In this document: positions 2,524 through 8,498 of the stretch, one piece after another
How positions within the stretch are numbered: the first letter of the stretch is position 1
How the letters are laid out: every line of letters starts with the position of its first letter
Source: Pseudomonadota bacterium
GTDB lineage: Bacteria; Pseudomonadota; Gammaproteobacteria; Burkholderiales; Burkholderiaceae_C
Length of the DNA stretch: 36,232 bases
Reading direction: 5' to 3'
NCBI GenBank assembly: GCA_030535425.1
Contig: JAUNHQ010000026.1
Span: 1-36,232 of the forward strand
The notes under the pieces: model-generated
The model's input: only the letters and a program-made list of their open reading frames with translations
Databases searched by the model: none
Told to the model about the DNA's origin: nothing
Made by a program: the position numbers and the translations under genes

Positions 2524-3012
2524 TCAGGGCAGCCTGCCCGCTGGCGCTGGTGGTGGCATGCCGCCAGCACCTGACCGCTGTGCCAGCGGTGGCATTTCCA
2601 GCCGCACCTGGCGCTCACCCGCCGCAATCACCACGGCATCCGGACTGAGCGAATGCACCTTCCAGCCATCCGCCCCCTCCAGCGCCGCCCCCACGCGCAA
2701 CGGCTTAGGAGGCTTGCCATCCACTGCGATCAGGGCCGCTCCCCGCCCGCCATGGGTAACGATACCGCGCAGCGCCAGCCGGTTGGTCACATCGACGACA
2801 GGCGCAGCCTGGGGTGCCGACTCCACTGCACCCAGGGCACTGGCCACCATGCGTGTGTCCACCACCAAACCGCCCGCAGGCATACCGCCAGCGGCGGGCG
2901 CCTGGCCGGGCTGGCCTGCACCGCCGGCACGCAAATACCAAAACAGCGCGCAGCCCGCCGCCAGTGCCCATACCAGCAGCGCCGAAAGGCTGGCCATCAA
3001 TCGCTGCCGCAT
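2524..3012 (-). CDS. gspC: Type II secretion protein C (GspC-like), short form
   Basis: A 162-residue protein with a short cytoplasmic start (MRQRLMA), one membrane helix at about residues 8-27 (LSALLVWALAAGCALFWYL), a Pro/Gly-rich linker, and an HR domain at about 65-130 (VVDVTNRLALRGIVTHGG, then AALIAVDGKPPKPLRVG). GspC links the inner-membrane platform to the GspD secretin through that domain. The protein ends soon after in a Pro-rich tail with no PDZ or coiled-coil domain, so it is shorter than classical GspC of about 270-300 residues. ATG 3012 is chosen over a TTG at 3042, which adds ten residues ahead of the helix. It is divergent from gspG, the arrangement known in Burkholderia gsp loci. 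The HR call is by eye. Confidence 0.72.
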   Translation of the reverse strand: MRQRLMASLSALLVWALAAGCALFWYLRAGGAGQPGQAPAAGGMPAGGLVVDTRMVASALGAVESAPQAAPVVDVTNRLALRGIVTHGGRGAALIAVDGKPPKPLRVGAALEGADGWKVHSLSPDAVVIAAGERQVRLEMPPLAQRSGAGGMPPPAPAGRLP

Positions 3013-3102
3013 GACAAGAAACCCAAGGTCCACATGCGGCAATTATGATTGAAGCGGTTCACCTGAATCGCGCTTCATTTGTCATTCTCACTCTCCATAC
3101 CC

Positions 3103-3546
3103 ATGACCACTGCCCCGCGTTTTTTTGCTCGCCTGCGCCAAGCTGCGGGCTTTACCTTGATTGAGCTGATGGTCGTGCTGGTCATCATCGGTGTGCTGGC
3201 TGCGCTGATCGTGCCCAACGTCCTGGACCGCACCGACGATGCACGCGCGACGGCCGCCCGCACCGACGTGCACAACATCATGCAGGCGCTCAAGCTCTAC
3301 AAGCTGGACAACCACCAGTTCCCCACTGCCGAGCAGGGCTTGCAGGCACTGGTGCAACGCCCCAGCGCCCCTCCCGCGCCAGGCAACTGGAAACCCTACC
3401 TGGAAAAACTGCCCAACGACCCCTGGGGCCGCCCCTACCAGTTCCTCAACCCCGGCGTAAAGGGCGAAGTGGACGTCATGAGCTTCGGCGCCGACGGGCA
3501 AAGCGGCGGTGAAGGCAAGAACGCGGACATTGGCAGCTGGCAATAA
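3103..3546 (+). CDS. gspG: Type II secretion major pseudopilin GspG
   Basis: A 147-residue prepilin-like protein. The leader ends AAG and is followed by FTLIELMVVLVIIGVLAALI, the N-methylated hydrophobic helix; GspO/PilD-type peptidase should cut after Gly16 and methylate Phe17. The body carries GspG hallmarks: TDVHNIMQALKLYKLDN, FPTAEQGLQALV, then DPWGRPYQF and a C-terminal DVMSFGADGQSGGEG loop that binds calcium in homologues. GspG polymerises into the periplasmic pseudopilus that pushes substrate through the secretin. ATG 3103 gives a 16-residue leader; a TTG at 3079 is possible but adds unneeded residues. No strong Shine-Dalgarno is visible. It is cut off from gspH by a foreign-looking 2-kb gene. 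Confidence 0.96.
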   Translation: MTTAPRFFARLRQAAGFTLIELMVVLVIIGVLAALIVPNVLDRTDDARATAARTDVHNIMQALKLYKLDNHQFPTAEQGLQALVQRPSAPPAPGNWKPYLEKLPNDPWGRPYQFLNPGVKGEVDVMSFGADGQSGGEGKNADIGSWQ

Positions 3547-3609
3547 CGATTTCGCATGCCTGAGTGCACCTACCTGAGCGCACCCGCCTGAGCGGGCCAT
3601 GCGCTTTAA

Positions 3610-5640
3610 GTGCCCATCTTTTTTCCATCTCCTGTGAACGTCTGGCAAAAACACTTGGCGGCAGACAGTGCAGCCGTCACTGTCTATCACCGCTTCATCC
3701 GCAAGGAACTGATCGACTTGTTCAGTTCGCCGCGCAAGCGCGTGCTGGAAATCGGCTCTGGCGCAGGCTACACCGGCCAATACTGCAAAACCCGCTTTCC
3801 TGGGGTTGAGTACTGGGGGTTTGAGCTCAACAAAGCGGCGGCCAAGGAATCTCTTGCTCACCTGGACAAGGTGGTGTGTGGTCCGTTCGAGCAGCAGGAT
3901 CTGTCTCTGCTGGGACTGGCACCCCACAGCGTCGATGGCGTGGTGCTCGGCGATGTGCTGGAGCATATGTACGACCCCTGGCGTGTTCTGGCTGGGCTGC
4001 AGCCTTGGCTGAGCGAGAACGCCGAGATCGCTATCAGCCTGCCCAATTTGCGCAATTTATGGCTGCTCAACGAAATAGCCGAAGGGCGTTTTACCTACGA
4101 CGCCGATGGCCTGCTGGACGTCACCCACATTCGTTTTTTCACGCTGCGTGAAATCGACGCCATGATGGCATCCACCGGCTACACCATCGCTCAAGGTCGA
4201 TTTGAACTCGATGCGCGGCTGGCCGACTTTTACCAGCACCATGCTCACATGCGCGGCCCTTGCGTGTTCCGCTACAAAAGCATCGGCATCCAATCCACAG
4301 GTGAAAGCCTGGGCGAGCTGTGCGCCAGGCAGCTGGTGTTTCTGGCCAAGCCTCGGCCTGTGTACCAGGCCATTGAGCCCATCCCCTCTGGCGCTGCGCT
4401 CGGCCGTCTGCCGCACGACTACGACGCCGCCTTTCAGCCCGACCCCGTGCACCATGCGGCGCAACTGCCACCTCGCCCTGACAAGCCGCAAATCCCTGTT
4501 GATCTGTACGCCTTCTACCTGCCGCAGTTTCATCCCACGCCGCAAAACTCCGCCTGGTGGGGCGAGGGCTTTACCGAATGGACCAATGTGACGCGTGCGC
4601 GCCCTGCTTTTGACGGCCACTACCAGCCACGCCATCCTGGCGAGCTGGGCTACTACGATCTGCGCGTGCCCGAAATCATGGCGCGCCAGGCAGAGCTGGC
4701 CAAGCAAGCAGGGCTGGCCGGCTTCATCTTTTACTACTACTGGTTCAGCGGCACGCGCATGCTGGACATGCCGCTGTTTCAGTACATGGCCCGGCAAGCC
4801 GAGTTGGGTCTGCCCTTTCTTGTTATGTGGTGCAATGAAAACTGGCGCCGCACTTGGGTCGACAAAGCCGATCCCGCCGATGGCGAAGACCTGCTGCTGG
4901 CGCACGGCCACCTGCCGGACGACCCCGAACGCTTCATCGACGATCTGCAACCCATCCTCTCGCACCCCGGCTACGTGCGGGTTGACGGGCGCCCGCTGCT
5001 GCTGGTGTACCCCCTCACCGGTTCCGATGGCACCGCCGACATCCCCACCACTCGCGGCTACGTCGAACGCTGGCGTGCCCATGCGCGCAAGATCGGCCTG
5101 GGCGAGCTGTGGATCGGCAGTCATGAGAAAAATGACCTCATGGCCCACGGCAAGCTGGCTGGCCCGCACGACCTGGGCGTGGACTTTTTCTTTGAGTTCC
5201 CGCCGCCCAACTCGCTCACCTACGCGCCTGCCGACAGCGCCAATGGCGTTCACCAGTTCCACGACCCAGACCATCAGATCAACATCGTCTATTACGCCAC
5301 GCTGATGGACAAACTGCGCACCCTGCCGCCGCCCAAGGTGCCCATGGTCAAGTCGGTGCTGGCCGGCAGTTGGGACAACACGGCACGCAAGGGCACGCGC
5401 GCCAACATCTTCCATGGCTGCACACCAGCCTTGTACGAGCGCTGGCTGCGCGAGGTGGCGCAATACGCCCAGGCCCACCCCGTGCTGGGGAAACAATCCA
5501 TGGTGTTCATCAACGCATGGAACGAGTGGGCCGAGGGCGTTTACCTGGAGCCTGACCGCAAATACGGTTATGCCCTGCTGGCGGCCACCCAGCGCGTGGC
5601 CTTTGATCTGCCAGCCAGCAGCGCGCCTGCGAAGAGCTGA
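3610..5640 (+). CDS. Fused SAM methyltransferase and WbsX/GH99-like glycan domain
   Basis: A 676-residue two-domain protein. Residues 1-250 look like a class I SAM methyltransferase: motif I VLEIGSGAGYTG at 45-56, an acidic residue ending strand 2 (WGFEL), and VVLGDVLEHMYDP at 111-123, typical of the Methyltransf_23/11 groups. Residues 295-665 match the WbsX or GH99-like family of O-antigen clusters: DLYAFYLPQFHP, WWGEGFTEWTNV, FYYYWFSGTR, MWCNENWRRTW, and near the end FINAWNEWAEGVYLEPD. Such proteins act on surface polysaccharide, but the reaction is not established. The start is GTG 3610 or GTG 3634; neither has a clear ribosome binding site. It lies between gspG and gspH, 8 bases before gspH, so probably shares their transcript. 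By eye its base composition is less GC-rich than its neighbours. Not a known secretion component. Confidence 0.82.
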   Translation: MPIFFPSPVNVWQKHLAADSAAVTVYHRFIRKELIDLFSSPRKRVLEIGSGAGYTGQYCKTRFPGVEYWGFELNKAAAKESLAHLDKVVCGPFEQQDLSLLGLAPHSVDGVVLGDVLEHMYDPWRVLAGLQPWLSENAEIAISLPNLRNLWLLNEIAEGRFTYDADGLLDVTHIRFFTLREIDAMMASTGYTIAQGRFELDARLADFYQHHAHMRGPCVFRYKSIGIQSTGESLGELCARQLVFLAKPRPVYQAIEPIPSGAALGRLPHDYDAAFQPDPVHHAAQLPPRPDKPQIPVDLYAFYLPQFHPTPQNSAWWGEGFTEWTNVTRARPAFDGHYQPRHPGELGYYDLRVPEIMARQAELAKQAGLAGFIFYYYWFSGTRMLDMPLFQYMARQAELGLPFLVMWCNENWRRTWVDKADPADGEDLLLAHGHLPDDPERFIDDLQPILSHPGYVRVDGRPLLLVYPLTGSDGTADIPTTRGYVERWRAHARKIGLGELWIGSHEKNDLMAHGKLAGPHDLGVDFFFEFPPPNSLTYAPADSANGVHQFHDPDHQINIVYYATLMDKLRTLPPPKVPMVKSVLAGSWDNTARKGTRANIFHGCTPALYERWLREVAQYAQAHPVLGKQSMVFINAWNEWAEGVYLEPDRKYGYALLAATQRVAFDLPASSAPAKS

Positions 5641-5648
5641 CACCTCAC

Positions 5649-6071
5649 ATGAGCCGCGGCTTCACCCTCATCGAGCTCATGGTCGTGGTGGCCGTGATTG
5701 CCCTGGGCACGGCCGTGGCCAGCCTGGCACTGCGCGATGGCGAAGGCGCCGTGCTCTCCCGTGACGCCGAGCGGCTGGCCGCGCTGCTGGAATCGGCCCG
5801 CGCGCAATCGCGCACCACAGGTGTGCCCATCATCTGGCGTGCCACCGACACCGGTTTTGCCTGGGACGGCCTGCCCCCCAGTGCGCCGCCGCTGCCCACG
5901 CACTGGCTGGACGCACGCACAGGTGCCATGGGCAATGCACCGCTGCTGCTGGGGCCTGACCCCATCATCGGCGCGCAAGCCGTGGTGCTGCACCGCGCGA
6001 ACAGCCAGACACCCATGCTGCGCGTGGCCACCGACGGTTTACGCCCCTTCATCGTGGAGCCAGCGCCATGA
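5649..6071 (+). CDS. gspH: Type II secretion minor pseudopilin GspH
   Basis: A 140-residue prepilin-like protein with a very short leader (MSRG) followed by FTLIELMVVVAVIALGTAVA, the pseudopilin helix with Glu at mature position 5. The segment RLAALLESARAQSRTTGVP is the usual GspH/FimT-type first helix continuation, and a beta-rich C-terminal half follows. GspH is a minor pseudopilin thought to link the I-J-K tip complex to the GspG shaft. The ATG follows the methyltransferase/WbsX stop by 8 bases and its own stop overlaps the gspI start by 4 bases (ATGA), so it is tightly coupled to gspI. The four-residue leader is at the short end but seen in the family. An alternative label would be FimT-like pseudopilin; position favours GspH. 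Confidence 0.85.
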   Translation: MSRGFTLIELMVVVAVIALGTAVASLALRDGEGAVLSRDAERLAALLESARAQSRTTGVPIIWRATDTGFAWDGLPPSAPPLPTHWLDARTGAMGNAPLLLGPDPIIGAQAVVLHRANSQTPMLRVATDGLRPFIVEPAP

Positions 6072-6451
6072 GCCGCCAGCACGCACAGCGGCCCCTGCCC
6101 TGCGGCAGGGGCTTCACGCTGGTGGAAGTCATGGTGGCTCTGTCCATCACGGCCATTGCACTGGTCGCAGGCCTGAAAGCCACGGCGGCACTGACCGACA
6201 ACGCAGGCCGTCAGAGTGCGCTGCTGCTGGCCCAGATCTGCGCTGAAAACCGTCTGGTGGAGCTGCGCCTGGCGCGCCAGCTGCCTGGCGTGGGCGACAG
6301 CACGTTCGACTGTGCCCAGGCTGGACGACAGTTCCAGATCGCGCAGGCCGTGCGCCCCACACCCAACCCCAATTTCCGCCGTGTGGAAGTCACGGCCCTG
6401 GAAGCGGGGCTGCCAGTGGTCAGCCTGGCGACGATTGTGGGAAGGAACTGA
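6068..6451 (+). CDS. gspI: Type II secretion minor pseudopilin GspI
   Basis: A 127-residue pseudopilin. The leader (15 residues ending CGRG) is followed by FTLVEVMVALSITAIALVAG, then LLLAQICAENRLVELRL, a pattern characteristic of GspI (A-x-x-x-A-E-N-x-L-x-E-L-R). Length matches the family. GspI forms the pseudopilus tip with GspJ and GspK and primes assembly. It starts within the gspH stop (ATGA) and ends TGATG, touching the first ATG of the long gspJ frame. A perfect 9-bp, 4-base-loop hairpin (6091-6112) lies within the leader codons and encodes the PLPCGRG part. Identification is firm. Confidence 0.9.
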   Translation: MSRQHAQRPLPCGRGFTLVEVMVALSITAIALVAGLKATAALTDNAGRQSALLLAQICAENRLVELRLARQLPGVGDSTFDCAQAGRQFQIAQAVRPTPNPNFRRVEVTALEAGLPVVSLATIVGRN

Positions 6452-6477: not shown

Positions 6478-6745
6478 CCCCCCCGAGGGGGGACAACGCT
6501 GGTGGCCGGGGAAACCCCGGCCACGGCGTTCCGGTATGGCTTGCTCCGCAGCCTTTGGGTCGGCCTGCTGCGCGGCCCTTTGCCTTTCTCCCTCCCCCGC
6601 TGGGGGGCTGGGATGAGGGCCGGGGAAACCCCGGCCACGGCGTTCCGGTGTGGCTTGCTCCGCAGCCTTTGGGTCGGCCTGCTGCGCGGCGCTTTGTTTT
6701 TCTCCCTCCCCCGCAGAGGGGGTGGGACGGGGGCCGGCCCCGGGC
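6478..6745 (+). repeat. Tandem 114-bp repeat lodged between gspI and gspJ
   Basis: Two near-identical units begin at 6504 and 6618, period 114, and a third starts at 6732 but stops after a few bases. Each unit opens with the perfect palindrome GGCCGGGG-AAA-CCCCGGCC (6504-6522 and 6618-6636) and shares GGCTTGCTCCGCAGCC and TTTGGGTCGGCCTGCTGCG. A C-run/G-run hairpin (6478-6491) precedes them. The period is exactly 38 codons and no stop occurs in the gspJ frame, so the frame stays open. I recall similar intergenic repeats in Comamonadaceae, but that needs a search. Confidence 0.88.
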
Positions 6746-6750
6746 GGCTG

Positions 6751-7470
6751 GTGCGTGTGCCCCATCGCGCGCGCCAGCCTGCCCAGCCCTGCCGGGGCTT
6801 CACGCTGATCGAGGTGCTGGTGGCGCTGACCATCATGGCCGTCATGGCGGTGCTGACCTGGCGGGGCATTGACGGCATTTCGCGCGCGCAACAGGCCACG
6901 CACCGCTACACCGATGACGTGCTGGCCCTCAATGCCGGACTGGCCCAATGGCGTGCTGATCTGGACGCCATGATGGTCTGGCCCCAAGCCTCGATCAGCA
7001 CACCGCCGGCTGGCGGCCCCCGGCTGCGCAGCCTGCTGTGGGATGGTCAGTCGCTGCGCATCACACGCACCGCTGCGGGCGCACCCGCAGCCGGTTTGCG
7101 CGTAGTGGCCTGGGCGCGCCACCCCGGCACGGGCCAGTGGCTGCGCTGGCAATCGGCGCCTGTGGCTTCCGCGCTGGCCTGGCAGGCGGCCTGGGACGCC
7201 GCCTCTGCCTGGGCACGCACCCCCGTGGCACAAGCCCCCGCCTCGGGCGGCATGCAGGCCGTGGCCGTGGCGGCCACGCTGGAGTGGCAGTTGCACTACT
7301 TCCGCCAGAACGCCTGGACCAACCCCCTGTCCAGCGGCGCCGACAGTGCCGCCCTCACCGACACCCTGCCCGATGGCGTGCGCCTGCTGCTCACCCTCGC
7401 GCCCGGCCAGAGCCTGAACGGCCCGCTGCAAATCGACTGGGTGCGCCCCGGTTTCGGAGCCGCGCGATGA
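6751..7470 (+). CDS. gspJ: Type II secretion minor pseudopilin GspJ (true start inside a longer frame)
   Basis: From GTG 6751 the product is 239 residues: a 16-residue leader ending PCRG, then FTLIEVLVALTIMAVMAVLT, the pseudopilin helix. The body has TWRGIDGISRAQQAT and a beta-rich C-terminal part, matching GspJ, the tip pseudopilin that binds GspI and GspK. The frame is open from ATG 6451, touching the gspI stop. That reading adds 100 residues encoded by the 114-bp repeat and would bury the prepilin leader, so GTG 6751 or GTG 6757 is a better start. No strong ribosome binding site precedes either. The stop overlaps gspK by 4 bases. The identity is firm; the start is an inference. Confidence 0.85.
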   Translation: MRVPHRARQPAQPCRGFTLIEVLVALTIMAVMAVLTWRGIDGISRAQQATHRYTDDVLALNAGLAQWRADLDAMMVWPQASISTPPAGGPRLRSLLWDGQSLRITRTAAGAPAAGLRVVAWARHPGTGQWLRWQSAPVASALAWQAAWDAASAWARTPVAQAPASGGMQAVAVAATLEWQLHYFRQNAWTNPLSSGADSAALTDTLPDGVRLLLTLAPGQSLNGPLQIDWVRPGFGAAR

Positions 7471-8498
7471 GCTTGCCGCGCACCGCTCGTGCCCCCACCC
7501 GTGGCGCGGCCTTGCTGGCGGCCATGATCACCGTGGCCCTGGTGGCCACCTTGGCCGCTGCCGCCCTGTGGCGCCAGTGGCGCGCGGTTGAGGTAGAGGC
7601 GGCTGAGCGCGCACGCGTGCAGTCGGCCTGGCTGCTGACCGGCGCGCTTGACTGGGGGCGCCTCATCCTGGGCGGTGACTTGCTCGAAGACCAGCGCAAC
7701 CAGCGCAGCCGCCGCCAGCCCCCTGCCGACCACCTGGGCGAGCCCTGGGCCGTTCCCCTGGCCGAAGCGCGCCTGTCCACCTTTTTGGCTGCCGGCGAAA
7801 CCAGCGCCGCAGCCGAGCGCGATGCCTTCCTGTCGGGCGAAGTCACCGACCTGCAATCGCGCCTGAACCTGATGAACCTGATCGCAGGCTCCAAGGAGCA
7901 GCAGACCGATGCCCTGCTGCGCTTTGACCGCCTGTTCACCCTGTTGGGCCTGCGCAGCGGCGAGCTGGGCGCCTTGCAGCGCGCCCTGGCCAACGCCCAT
8001 GCAGCCATGCAAGGCCAAGCCTCCGAAACGGGCGATGCCCCGCTCATGCCCAACCGCTTCGAGCAACTGGCCTGGCTGGGCGTGTCACCTGAAACCCTGC
8101 AAGCCCTGCGCCCCTACGCCACCTTGCTGCCGCTGGTCAACAACGCGGCCACCACCGTCAACGTCAACACCGCCAGCGCCGAAGCCATCCACGCCGCCGC
8201 CCCCTCGCTGGATCTGGCCCAGGCCCAGCGCCTGGTCGTGCAGCGCGACAGCGGCGCCTTTCGCACCGCTGAGGCCATCCGCCAGGCCGCCGGCCTGACC
8301 AGCGAGGCCGACTTGGGCTGGCTGAGCGTGACCTCGGATTTTTTTGAAATCCGCGGCCGCCTGCGCCTGGACGACGTGGCACTGGAAGAAACAGCCCTTG
8401 TGCAGCGCATCCGCCAACCGCGCGGCGTACACACCCTCTGGCGCGAGCGCAGCGCATGCAGCCCTGCCTGCCAGGCCTCCCCCGCACCGCGCCCATGA
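7467..8498 (+). CDS. gspK: Type II secretion minor pseudopilin GspK
   Basis: A 343-residue protein, near the usual GspK size of about 320-340. The N-terminus MSLPRTARAPTRG is followed by AALLAAMITVALVATLAAA, the GspK version of the pseudopilin helix, which lacks the Phe and Glu of other pseudopilins. SGEVTDLQSRLNLMNLI and VNVNTASAEAIHAAAPSLDL are family blocks; the second is a helix-hairpin-helix-like SAM repeat. GspK caps the pseudopilus tip. ATG 7467 overlaps the gspJ stop (ATGA). The normal next genes, gspL and gspM, do not follow; 398 noncoding bases with inverted repeat copies do. The last 30 residues are Arg/Pro/Cys-rich and may be altered relative to relatives. Confidence 0.9.
   Translation: MSLPRTARAPTRGAALLAAMITVALVATLAAAALWRQWRAVEVEAAERARVQSAWLLTGALDWGRLILGGDLLEDQRNQRSRRQPPADHLGEPWAVPLAEARLSTFLAAGETSAAAERDAFLSGEVTDLQSRLNLMNLIAGSKEQQTDALLRFDRLFTLLGLRSGELGALQRALANAHAAMQGQASETGDAPLMPNRFEQLAWLGVSPETLQALRPYATLLPLVNNAATTVNVNTASAEAIHAAAPSLDLAQAQRLVVQRDSGAFRTAEAIRQAAGLTSEADLGWLSVTSDFFEIRGRLRLDDVALEETALVQRIRQPRGVHTLWRERSACSPACQASPAPRP

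Follow-up and report, generated by a model that had tools for sequence, protein, structure and literature searches.

The window analysed here is a stretch of 36,232 nucleotides (contig JAUNHQ010000026.1 of assembly GCA_030535425.1, assigned to the Burkholderiaceae_C), in which a gene coding for a fused methyltransferase (MT) and WbsX protein is located between gspG and gspH of the type II secretion system (T2SS) pseudopilin operon. The open reading frame (ORF; positions 3610-5640, forward strand) codes for 676 amino acids and is free of internal stops, with its stop codon (5638-5640) occurring 8 bases before the gspH ATG (5649), while gspG ends at 3546. A first-pass annotation, made from the sequence alone, had described an MT-WbsX gene of this length on the gsp strand, 8 bases before gspH, and both the ORF and the Pfam domains bear this out. 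Of the extent it gave, 3610-5640, the end and the frame hold and the start probably does not: GTG 3610 comes immediately after an in-frame TAA, while the GTG at 3634 (..NVWQK) falls at the position where, in a second genome of the genus (G026), the copy begins with ATG (MHLWQK), so that a start at 3634, yielding a protein of 668 amino acids, is likelier.

The N-terminal arm has a putative methyltransferase (3cc8) as its nearest solved structure (E 1.2e-27), and the window copy carries the features of a class I S-adenosylmethionine-dependent methyltransferase, namely EIGSGAG (motif I), E64 as the acidic residue following motif I, and GDVLEH. The residues D107, E110 and H111 are conserved in 61, 62 and 62, respectively, of 63 aligned MT sequences, and every motif examined is present in the window copy. 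The C-terminal arm matches PF14307 over positions 2-349 of the 350 in the model with a score of 347.4 bits (gathering cut-off 25.1), while sharing at most 47% identity with WbsX domains outside the genus. The glutamates E639 and E642 are invariant in all 43 aligned WbsX sequences, and in 38 columns the copies of the three genomes carrying the gene agree with all 40 other WbsX sequences, the rows of the alignments A3 and A4, including the WbsX alignment, having been picked by hand. When a profile of the 43 WbsX sequences was searched against PDB, seven sequences were matched at E<=1, each bearing the name endo-alpha-mannosidase or glycosyl hydrolase family 71, with whole-sequence E-values of 3.5e-4 to 4.6e-3. 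Among the matched entries are 4acy, 4ad1 and 5lyr, which we take to be GH99 structures, and in the three PDB chains shown NEWxEG / ExxE is aligned under the NEWAE of the window protein. A single-sequence search for a solved WbsX homologue returned spurious repeat-protein matches only. From the profile matches we infer that WbsX may share the chemistry of GH99. GH99 enzymes use an ExxE pair and a 1,2-anhydro-sugar mechanism, according to the available part of PMC12394665. In the portion available of a study on Burkholderia gladioli, wbsX mutants selected as phage-resistant are placed in the O-antigen cluster and the authors infer an aberrant O-antigen (PMC13391952); the name 'Glyco_tran_WbsX' occurred in no paper of the collection searched.

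No hydrophobic segment is present in the fusion protein (highest 19-residue Kyte-Doolittle mean 1.21), so that its action is expected in the cytoplasm and ahead of any export. The Sec or Tat signal of a T2SS substrate is likewise lacking by hydropathy, the 19-residue mean over the first 63 residues peaking at 0.44.

The neighbours of the fusion gene are gspC, gspG, gspH-K, an alpha/beta hydrolase gene and relA, rather than a surface-polysaccharide locus, and no glycan genes were found among ten further window ORFs scanned (Table 1). The 3' end of the gene adjoins gspH in all three carriers, being separated from it by 8 bases in the window and 29 bases in genome G021 and overlapping it by ATGA in G026. 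A scan of positions 2900-5900 revealed no promoter-like site and seven terminator-like sites, compared to 2.4 in shuffled sequences, and the window has no Rfam match at gathering scores. The G+C content of the parts of the fusion gene (0.58-0.64) is below that of gspH-K (0.67-0.72) and close to that of gspG (0.64). Downstream, the best match of gspJ is a general prepilin domain, with the gspJ model second (30.4 bits, below the cut-off of 64.85). The gspI-gspJ interval (6480-6707) contains a 114-base repeat in two direct copies that are 89% alike and have inner inverted arms, and reading through these repeats adds approximately 113 residues to the gspJ ORF.

Table 1. Features of the gsp locus and of the MT-WbsX fusion gene in the window.
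Feature	Position	Strand	Basis
gspC-like gene, divergent from gspG	2524..3042	-	Pfam T2SSC 27.1 bits, cut-off 27; no NCBIfam match
gspG, major pseudopilin (ATG 3103 inside ORF 3079-3546)	3103..3546	+	TIGR01710 184.8 bits, cut-off 88.85
MT-WbsX fusion gene of 676 codons, GTG 3634 being the likelier start	3610..5640	+	ORF, Pfam, carrier alignment
Class I SAM methyltransferase arm, residues 28-194	3691..4191	+	Methyltransf_23 E 3.1e-12
Linker between the arms	4192..4490	+	50.5% identity to G021, the lowest along the gene
WbsX/GH99-like arm, residues 300-659	4507..5586	+	PF14307 E 1.5e-103 (2.1e-104 in the genus-wide profile search)
ExxE pair E639/E642 in NEWAEG	5524..5535	+	aligned with NEWHEG of GH99 structures
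gspH	5649..6071	+	TIGR01708 best match, 53.6 bits, below cut-off 80
gspI	6068..6451	+	TIGR01707 56.1 bits, cut-off 44.35
gspJ proper, approximate start (ORF opens at 6451 through repeats)	6787..7470	+	prepilin motif, ORF residues 114-135
gspK	7467..8498	+	NF037980 221.5 bits, cut-off 130

The genus was sampled with 29 genomes, among which the window genome (G000) is a draft of 88.62% completeness and the other two carriers are drafts of 77 and 81%. In a PF14307 profile search, WbsX was found in three of the 29 (the window genome, G021 and G026), with one copy each and all between gspG and gspH, while a protein search returned long relatives in G021 (68% identity) and G026 (58-63%, in two pieces); overall the copies are 57-68% identical. 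The same gap is thus occupied in three species, and the fusion gene, for which the first-pass annotation had asked whether the position is conserved, is neither confined to this genome nor related exclusively to genes of O-antigen loci. Both gspG and gspH could be placed in 27 of the genomes (G013 has no gspG match and that of G011 is weak), of which 24 have gaps of 22-497 bases in place of the gene. A tblastn search of these gaps for remnants (E<=10) gave chance matches only, with E-values of 5.0 (G027) and 5.2 (G018). The gaps of 200-500 bases (G002, G004, G012, G014, G015, G017, G025, G027 and others) contain similar G+C-rich stretches (CCCCCCTGAGTCGCC..., ...GATAGCTGC...), which by eye look like a dispersed intergenic repeat family, and the gspG-gspH gap may be a tolerant site.

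Beyond the genus, a gspG match at the strict limit was present in 132 of 150 genomes, and 60 gspG regions from other genera of the family were compared, one per genome from the first 60 out-of-genus genomes by score. In 58 of the 59 measurable regions (the remaining contig being cut off too early) 16-446 bases separate the gspG stop from the next prepilin motif, with G132, where 3394 bases intervene, showing a different arrangement. The gene therefore does not occur as a T2SS component would, in most operons, being present in three of 27 genus genomes and in none of these 58 gaps. No other single match spanning both arms was found in 250 family and 399 order genomes, in searches in which at most four and two candidates, respectively, were scored per genome and further relatives may have been missed. 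Adjacent but separate genes match the two arms in G038, G183 and G199, the last of which was considered as a possible fusion and rejected because two genes are present. GspD scored above the cut-off in all six genomes searched, three carriers and three non-carriers, and non-carriers thus keep the T2SS without the fusion gene. The patchy distribution, with three non-sister carriers among 27 genomes, speaks against a requirement for the gene in secretion. In the window genome itself, GspD is matched best in two pieces (G000:C71:72513-74467) that lie in different frames, representing either a broken gene or a draft error. An assembly artefact of a single genome was rejected, as the same junction occurs in three draft genomes, for two of which it is also found in the public contigs JAIRRE010000065.1 and ONTY01000065.1. 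Carriage as the cargo of a mobile element or phage was similarly rejected: no repeat of at least 14 bases was found in 3540-3640 (the two ends were not compared with each other), none of the seven records from the phage collection covers 80% of the query, and of 77 plasmid records the two that do so are both from Ruegeria, with two separate annotated genes.

The MT arms of the three carriers form one clade (support 100/99), indicating that the fusion arose once, and within it the window and G021 copies join first, followed by that of G026 (99/83). In the RelA tree the carriers do not form a clade, and forcing them together is rejected (approximately unbiased test, p 1.5e-45; minimum of three changes). 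Instead, the window genome pairs with G019 (100/99) and G021 with G022 (100/100), neither of these sisters having the fusion gene, and the joined gspG-J protein tree shows the same two pairs (97 and 100). The gspG-gspH gaps of both sisters are clean, measuring 79 bases in G019 and 51 bases in G022. As the carriers are not sisters, the gene must have been lost from some lineages or moved into this one gap by old transfers. Silent-site divergence (dS) is near saturation and similar in the fusion gene and its gsp neighbours. Between the window and G021 it is 1.17 for the MT and 1.12 for the WbsX arm, compared to 0.60 for gspG (119 codons), 1.11 for gspH, 1.06 for gspI and 0.65 for gspK; between the window and G026 it is 1.44 for the MT part and 1.20 for the rest, compared to 1.27 for gspG, 0.70 for gspH and 1.37 for gspI. 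The ratio of non-synonymous to silent divergence (dN/dS) is 0.18 for both arms in the former pair, 0.20 for the MT part and 0.30 for the rest in the latter, and 0.32 for the WbsX part between G021 and G026, with the gsp genes ranging from 0.15 to 0.67 in the same pairs. Being about as diverged as the pseudopilins, the fusion gene is old, and purifying selection acts on it with about the strength seen for them. The recent insertion offered as one option in the first-pass annotation is therefore rejected, the copies being only 57-68% identical and showing about the same silent-site divergence as their gsp neighbours.

The two arms have distinct relatives. The MT arm alone is covered by 25 matches from outside the genus (E<=1e-40, 37-46% identity), with homology to large MT-glycosyltransferases extending beyond the MT domain to residue ~263-271. 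Most of these relatives are encoded in frames of 1105-1857 residues, while four are smaller (341-344 and 768). Within the stretches analysed, fourteen of the 24 loci examined (G551 was left out) contain fliC, fliD or flgL, a further four contain a NeuB-family gene and six have neither, two of the latter being on 4-kb contigs. The large proteins scanned (L248, L249 and L256; 1409-1597 amino acids) combine the MT with GT2 or RgpF domains. A clade of 31 MT sequences (99/92, with the bootstrap not fully settled) comprises the three carriers, all 14 flagellar-locus MTs and 14 others. The fusion gene itself does not lie in a flagellin island, as it is flanked by gsp genes and a flagellin profile found no match in any of seven genus genomes searched, with four of 14 control genomes positive. 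The large MT-glycosyltransferases beside fliC, fliD or flgL, often near NeuB-family genes (L248, L249, L255, L256, L326, L328, L330, L331, L334, L336, L339, L340, L341 and L343), are candidate flagellin glycosylation enzymes, the domains having been scanned in L248, L249 and L256.

A scan of genome contigs gave the best 80 of 525 WbsX relatives, among which L085 and L086 are the carriers. The relatives of the WbsX arm whose surroundings were examined occur in multi-domain glycosyltransferases or adjoin glycan or MT genes, consistent with the earlier assignment of WbsX to the company of surface-glycan genes. An MT directly precedes WbsX elsewhere as an adjacent gene in L253, L114, L087, L139 and L044 (G199), and as a fusion in L165. 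This last (L165:485-2653) joins MT and WbsX in one frame of 722 amino acids and comes from a contig classified as viral; its MT belongs to a different clade. A motif-pattern scan of 124 loci, which overlooks degenerate MTs (L085, L253) and some WbsX domains (L044), identified at least one fused and at least six adjacent MT-WbsX arrangements. In the MT tree, L253, L114 and L165 group in a different clade (97/87), L139 falls in a third group, and L087 has a long branch within the broad clade of the carriers; MT and WbsX were thus joined more than once. A gspG match was found in two (L139 and L130) of 78 non-carrier WbsX loci among the best 80 (1.17 Mb), where approximately 0.44 would be expected by chance, assuming 1.5 gspG per 4 Mb, and a general association of WbsX with the T2SS was rejected as too weak on this count. 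In L139 (1157-11703, a Burkholderiales draft) gspE (Pfam) is followed after a gap of ~200 bases by an MT gene and a WbsX-RgpF gene, while a gspF-like gene, gspG and two further genes read from their sequence as having prepilin motifs occur on the other strand. In L130 (3-8816, a Robiginitomaculum sp. draft) gspG and a second prepilin-motif gene are followed ~30 bases on by an MT gene, and further by gspF (Pfam), a gene on the other strand that reads as sulfotransferase-like, and a gene for a WbsX-glycosyltransferase of 1585 residues. Both loci thus also have an MT gene.

Starting from what is observed directly, namely the domain composition, the location, a single origin, purifying selection and the lack of any signal-peptide or membrane-helix stretch, the reading we favour, at about an even chance of being correct, is that of a cytoplasmic two-domain glycan-tailoring enzyme whose gene entered the gspG-K row on a single occasion in the distant past and has been retained in some lineages. 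The WbsX arm would work like a GH99-type enzyme, with the NEWAE glutamates transferring or trimming an alpha-linked sugar, and its substrate would be a precursor of a surface glycan in the cytoplasm, a sugar of which would be methylated by the MT arm. The gene would borrow the transcription of the T2SS operon and couple its translation to that of gspH. The glycan most probably belongs to the cell surface (O-antigen or similar) rather than to the pseudopilus. Several observations weigh against this proposal. The MT arm of G021 lacks D107, E110 and H111, with GALAR in their place, and so does not retain the class I motif set; these changes are ordinary substitutions without a frame slip, and this copy has no counterpart to the first 22 residues. 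In G026 the MT frame ends after 158 residues, before the C-terminal motifs, and a second frame with the WbsX part overlaps the first by GTGA (L004:2708-2711), the ~30 residues between having been lost, reflecting either breakage of the gene or its fission into two translationally coupled frames. The MT arm thus looks broken in two of the three carriers and the WbsX arm intact, and with two damaged MT arms the enzyme there may be WbsX alone. Judged by these sequences, the WbsX arm is constant across the carriers and the MT arm is not. Furthermore, the likeness to GH99 was found by profile, single stretches being weak (i-E >=0.13), the carriers have no second WbsX gene in the 29-genome profile search, and a weak terminator-like hairpin (3601-3613) occurs just upstream of the fusion gene, so that its co-transcription with gspG is not certain.

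An alternative that we regard as improbable is that the enzyme places a methylated glycan on the T2SS pseudopilus or on T2SS substrates, in analogy with the flagellin-modification genes adjacent to fliC. The fusion gene adjoins the major pseudopilin gene in all three carriers, where every WbsX of the 29 genus genomes is found, and its MT arm falls in the 31-sequence clade with all 14 flagellar-locus MTs, yet none of the seven genus genomes searched has a flagellin match, so that a target other than flagellin would be needed. The two unrelated WbsX loci L139 and L130 also occur beside T2SS genes with an MT gene, although with two gspG in 78 loci, against 0.44 by chance, they lend weak support. 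Pilin glycosylation by enzymes of the PilO/TfpO type is periplasmic, whereas the fusion enzyme is cytoplasmic. In addition, gspG and gspH occur without the gene in 24 of the 27 measured genus genomes, two of the three MT arms look dead, and the glycosyltransferase domains of the three scanned flagellar-type proteins are absent from the fusion protein. The flagellin-modification islands of Enterobacteriaceae, which favour the analogy, adjoin fliC, being described in the part of PMC4875605 available as lying between fliC and fliA, patchy in distribution and encoding glycosyltransferases with MT domains. In its most specific wording, that a fusion of a flagellin-island-type MT with a GH99-like WbsX, encoded inside the gspG-K operon, might decorate the T2SS pseudopilus or its cargo, this alternative is a shade more doubtful still.

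Somewhat less improbable, if still unlikely, is a frozen accident in decay, whereby the gene landed in the gsp operon long ago without any tie to secretion, has been lost lineage by lineage and is now on its way out. The patchy carriers, which the RelA tree does not unite in one clade, the clean gaps of the sisters G019 and G022 and the broken MT arms of G021 and G026 are in keeping with this. Decay is, however, countered by the dN/dS of 0.18-0.32 over the compared stretches in all three pairs, by the 38 columns that the three copies share with all 40 other WbsX sequences, and by the complete set of examined MT motifs in the window copy. Repeated transfer into the same gap, by homologous recombination between species of the genus via the conserved ends of gspG and gspH, is an alternative concerning the route of the gene and not its function; although not favoured, it carries appreciable weight as a minority view. 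It would account for the scatter of the three carriers over separate parts of the tree and for the absence of the gene from the sisters of two of them. Against it, the silent divergence of the gene resembles that of its flanks, near saturation (1.12-1.17 versus 0.60-1.11 between the window and G021; 1.20-1.44 versus 0.70-1.37 between the window and G026), and the order in the gene tree, window and G021 followed by G026, agrees with the outermost position of G026 in the RelA tree, where the root is a midpoint and G026 has a long branch.

The cytoplasmic glycan-tailoring enzyme favoured above occupies a junction that is otherwise very constant, with a short gap in 58 of 59 genomes from other genera and 24 of 27 from the genus. 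A glycan enzyme kept in this gap in three species is a simple place in which to ask about the cytoplasmic modification of the pseudopilus or of T2SS substrates, and loci of the L139 and L130 type merit a wider search. Likewise, a compact protein of 668 amino acids is suited to working out the WbsX/GH99-like chemistry, the function of WbsX in the B. gladioli study having been inferred from mutants, as given in the available text of PMC13391952.

With the WbsX (PF14307)/GH99-like enzymes of O-antigen loci, the fusion protein shares the full-length domain and its invariant columns, including the NEWxE pair, but it is encoded within a T2SS pseudopilin operon instead of a glycan cluster. Its MT arm is of a different lineage from the MTs that accompany WbsX in L253, L114 and L165, and is 37-46% identical to, and in the same supported clade as, the large MT-glycosyltransferases of Burkholderiales flagellar loci, whose glycosyltransferase part is replaced by WbsX in the fusion protein. 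The MT-WbsX pairs found elsewhere (L165, L253, L114, L087, L044, L139 and two Ruegeria plasmids) are similarly side by side, with the MT first in the loci read, but gsp genes are found beside L139 only, the flanks of L044 covering 1.5 kb. As in the flagellin glycosylation and methylation islands of Enterobacteriaceae, so far as the accessible part of PMC4875605 describes them, modification genes lie beside a filament subunit gene, are patchy and involve glycosyltransferases with MT domains; there the filament is flagellin, whereas here the candidate target is the pseudopilus, as suggested by gene position.

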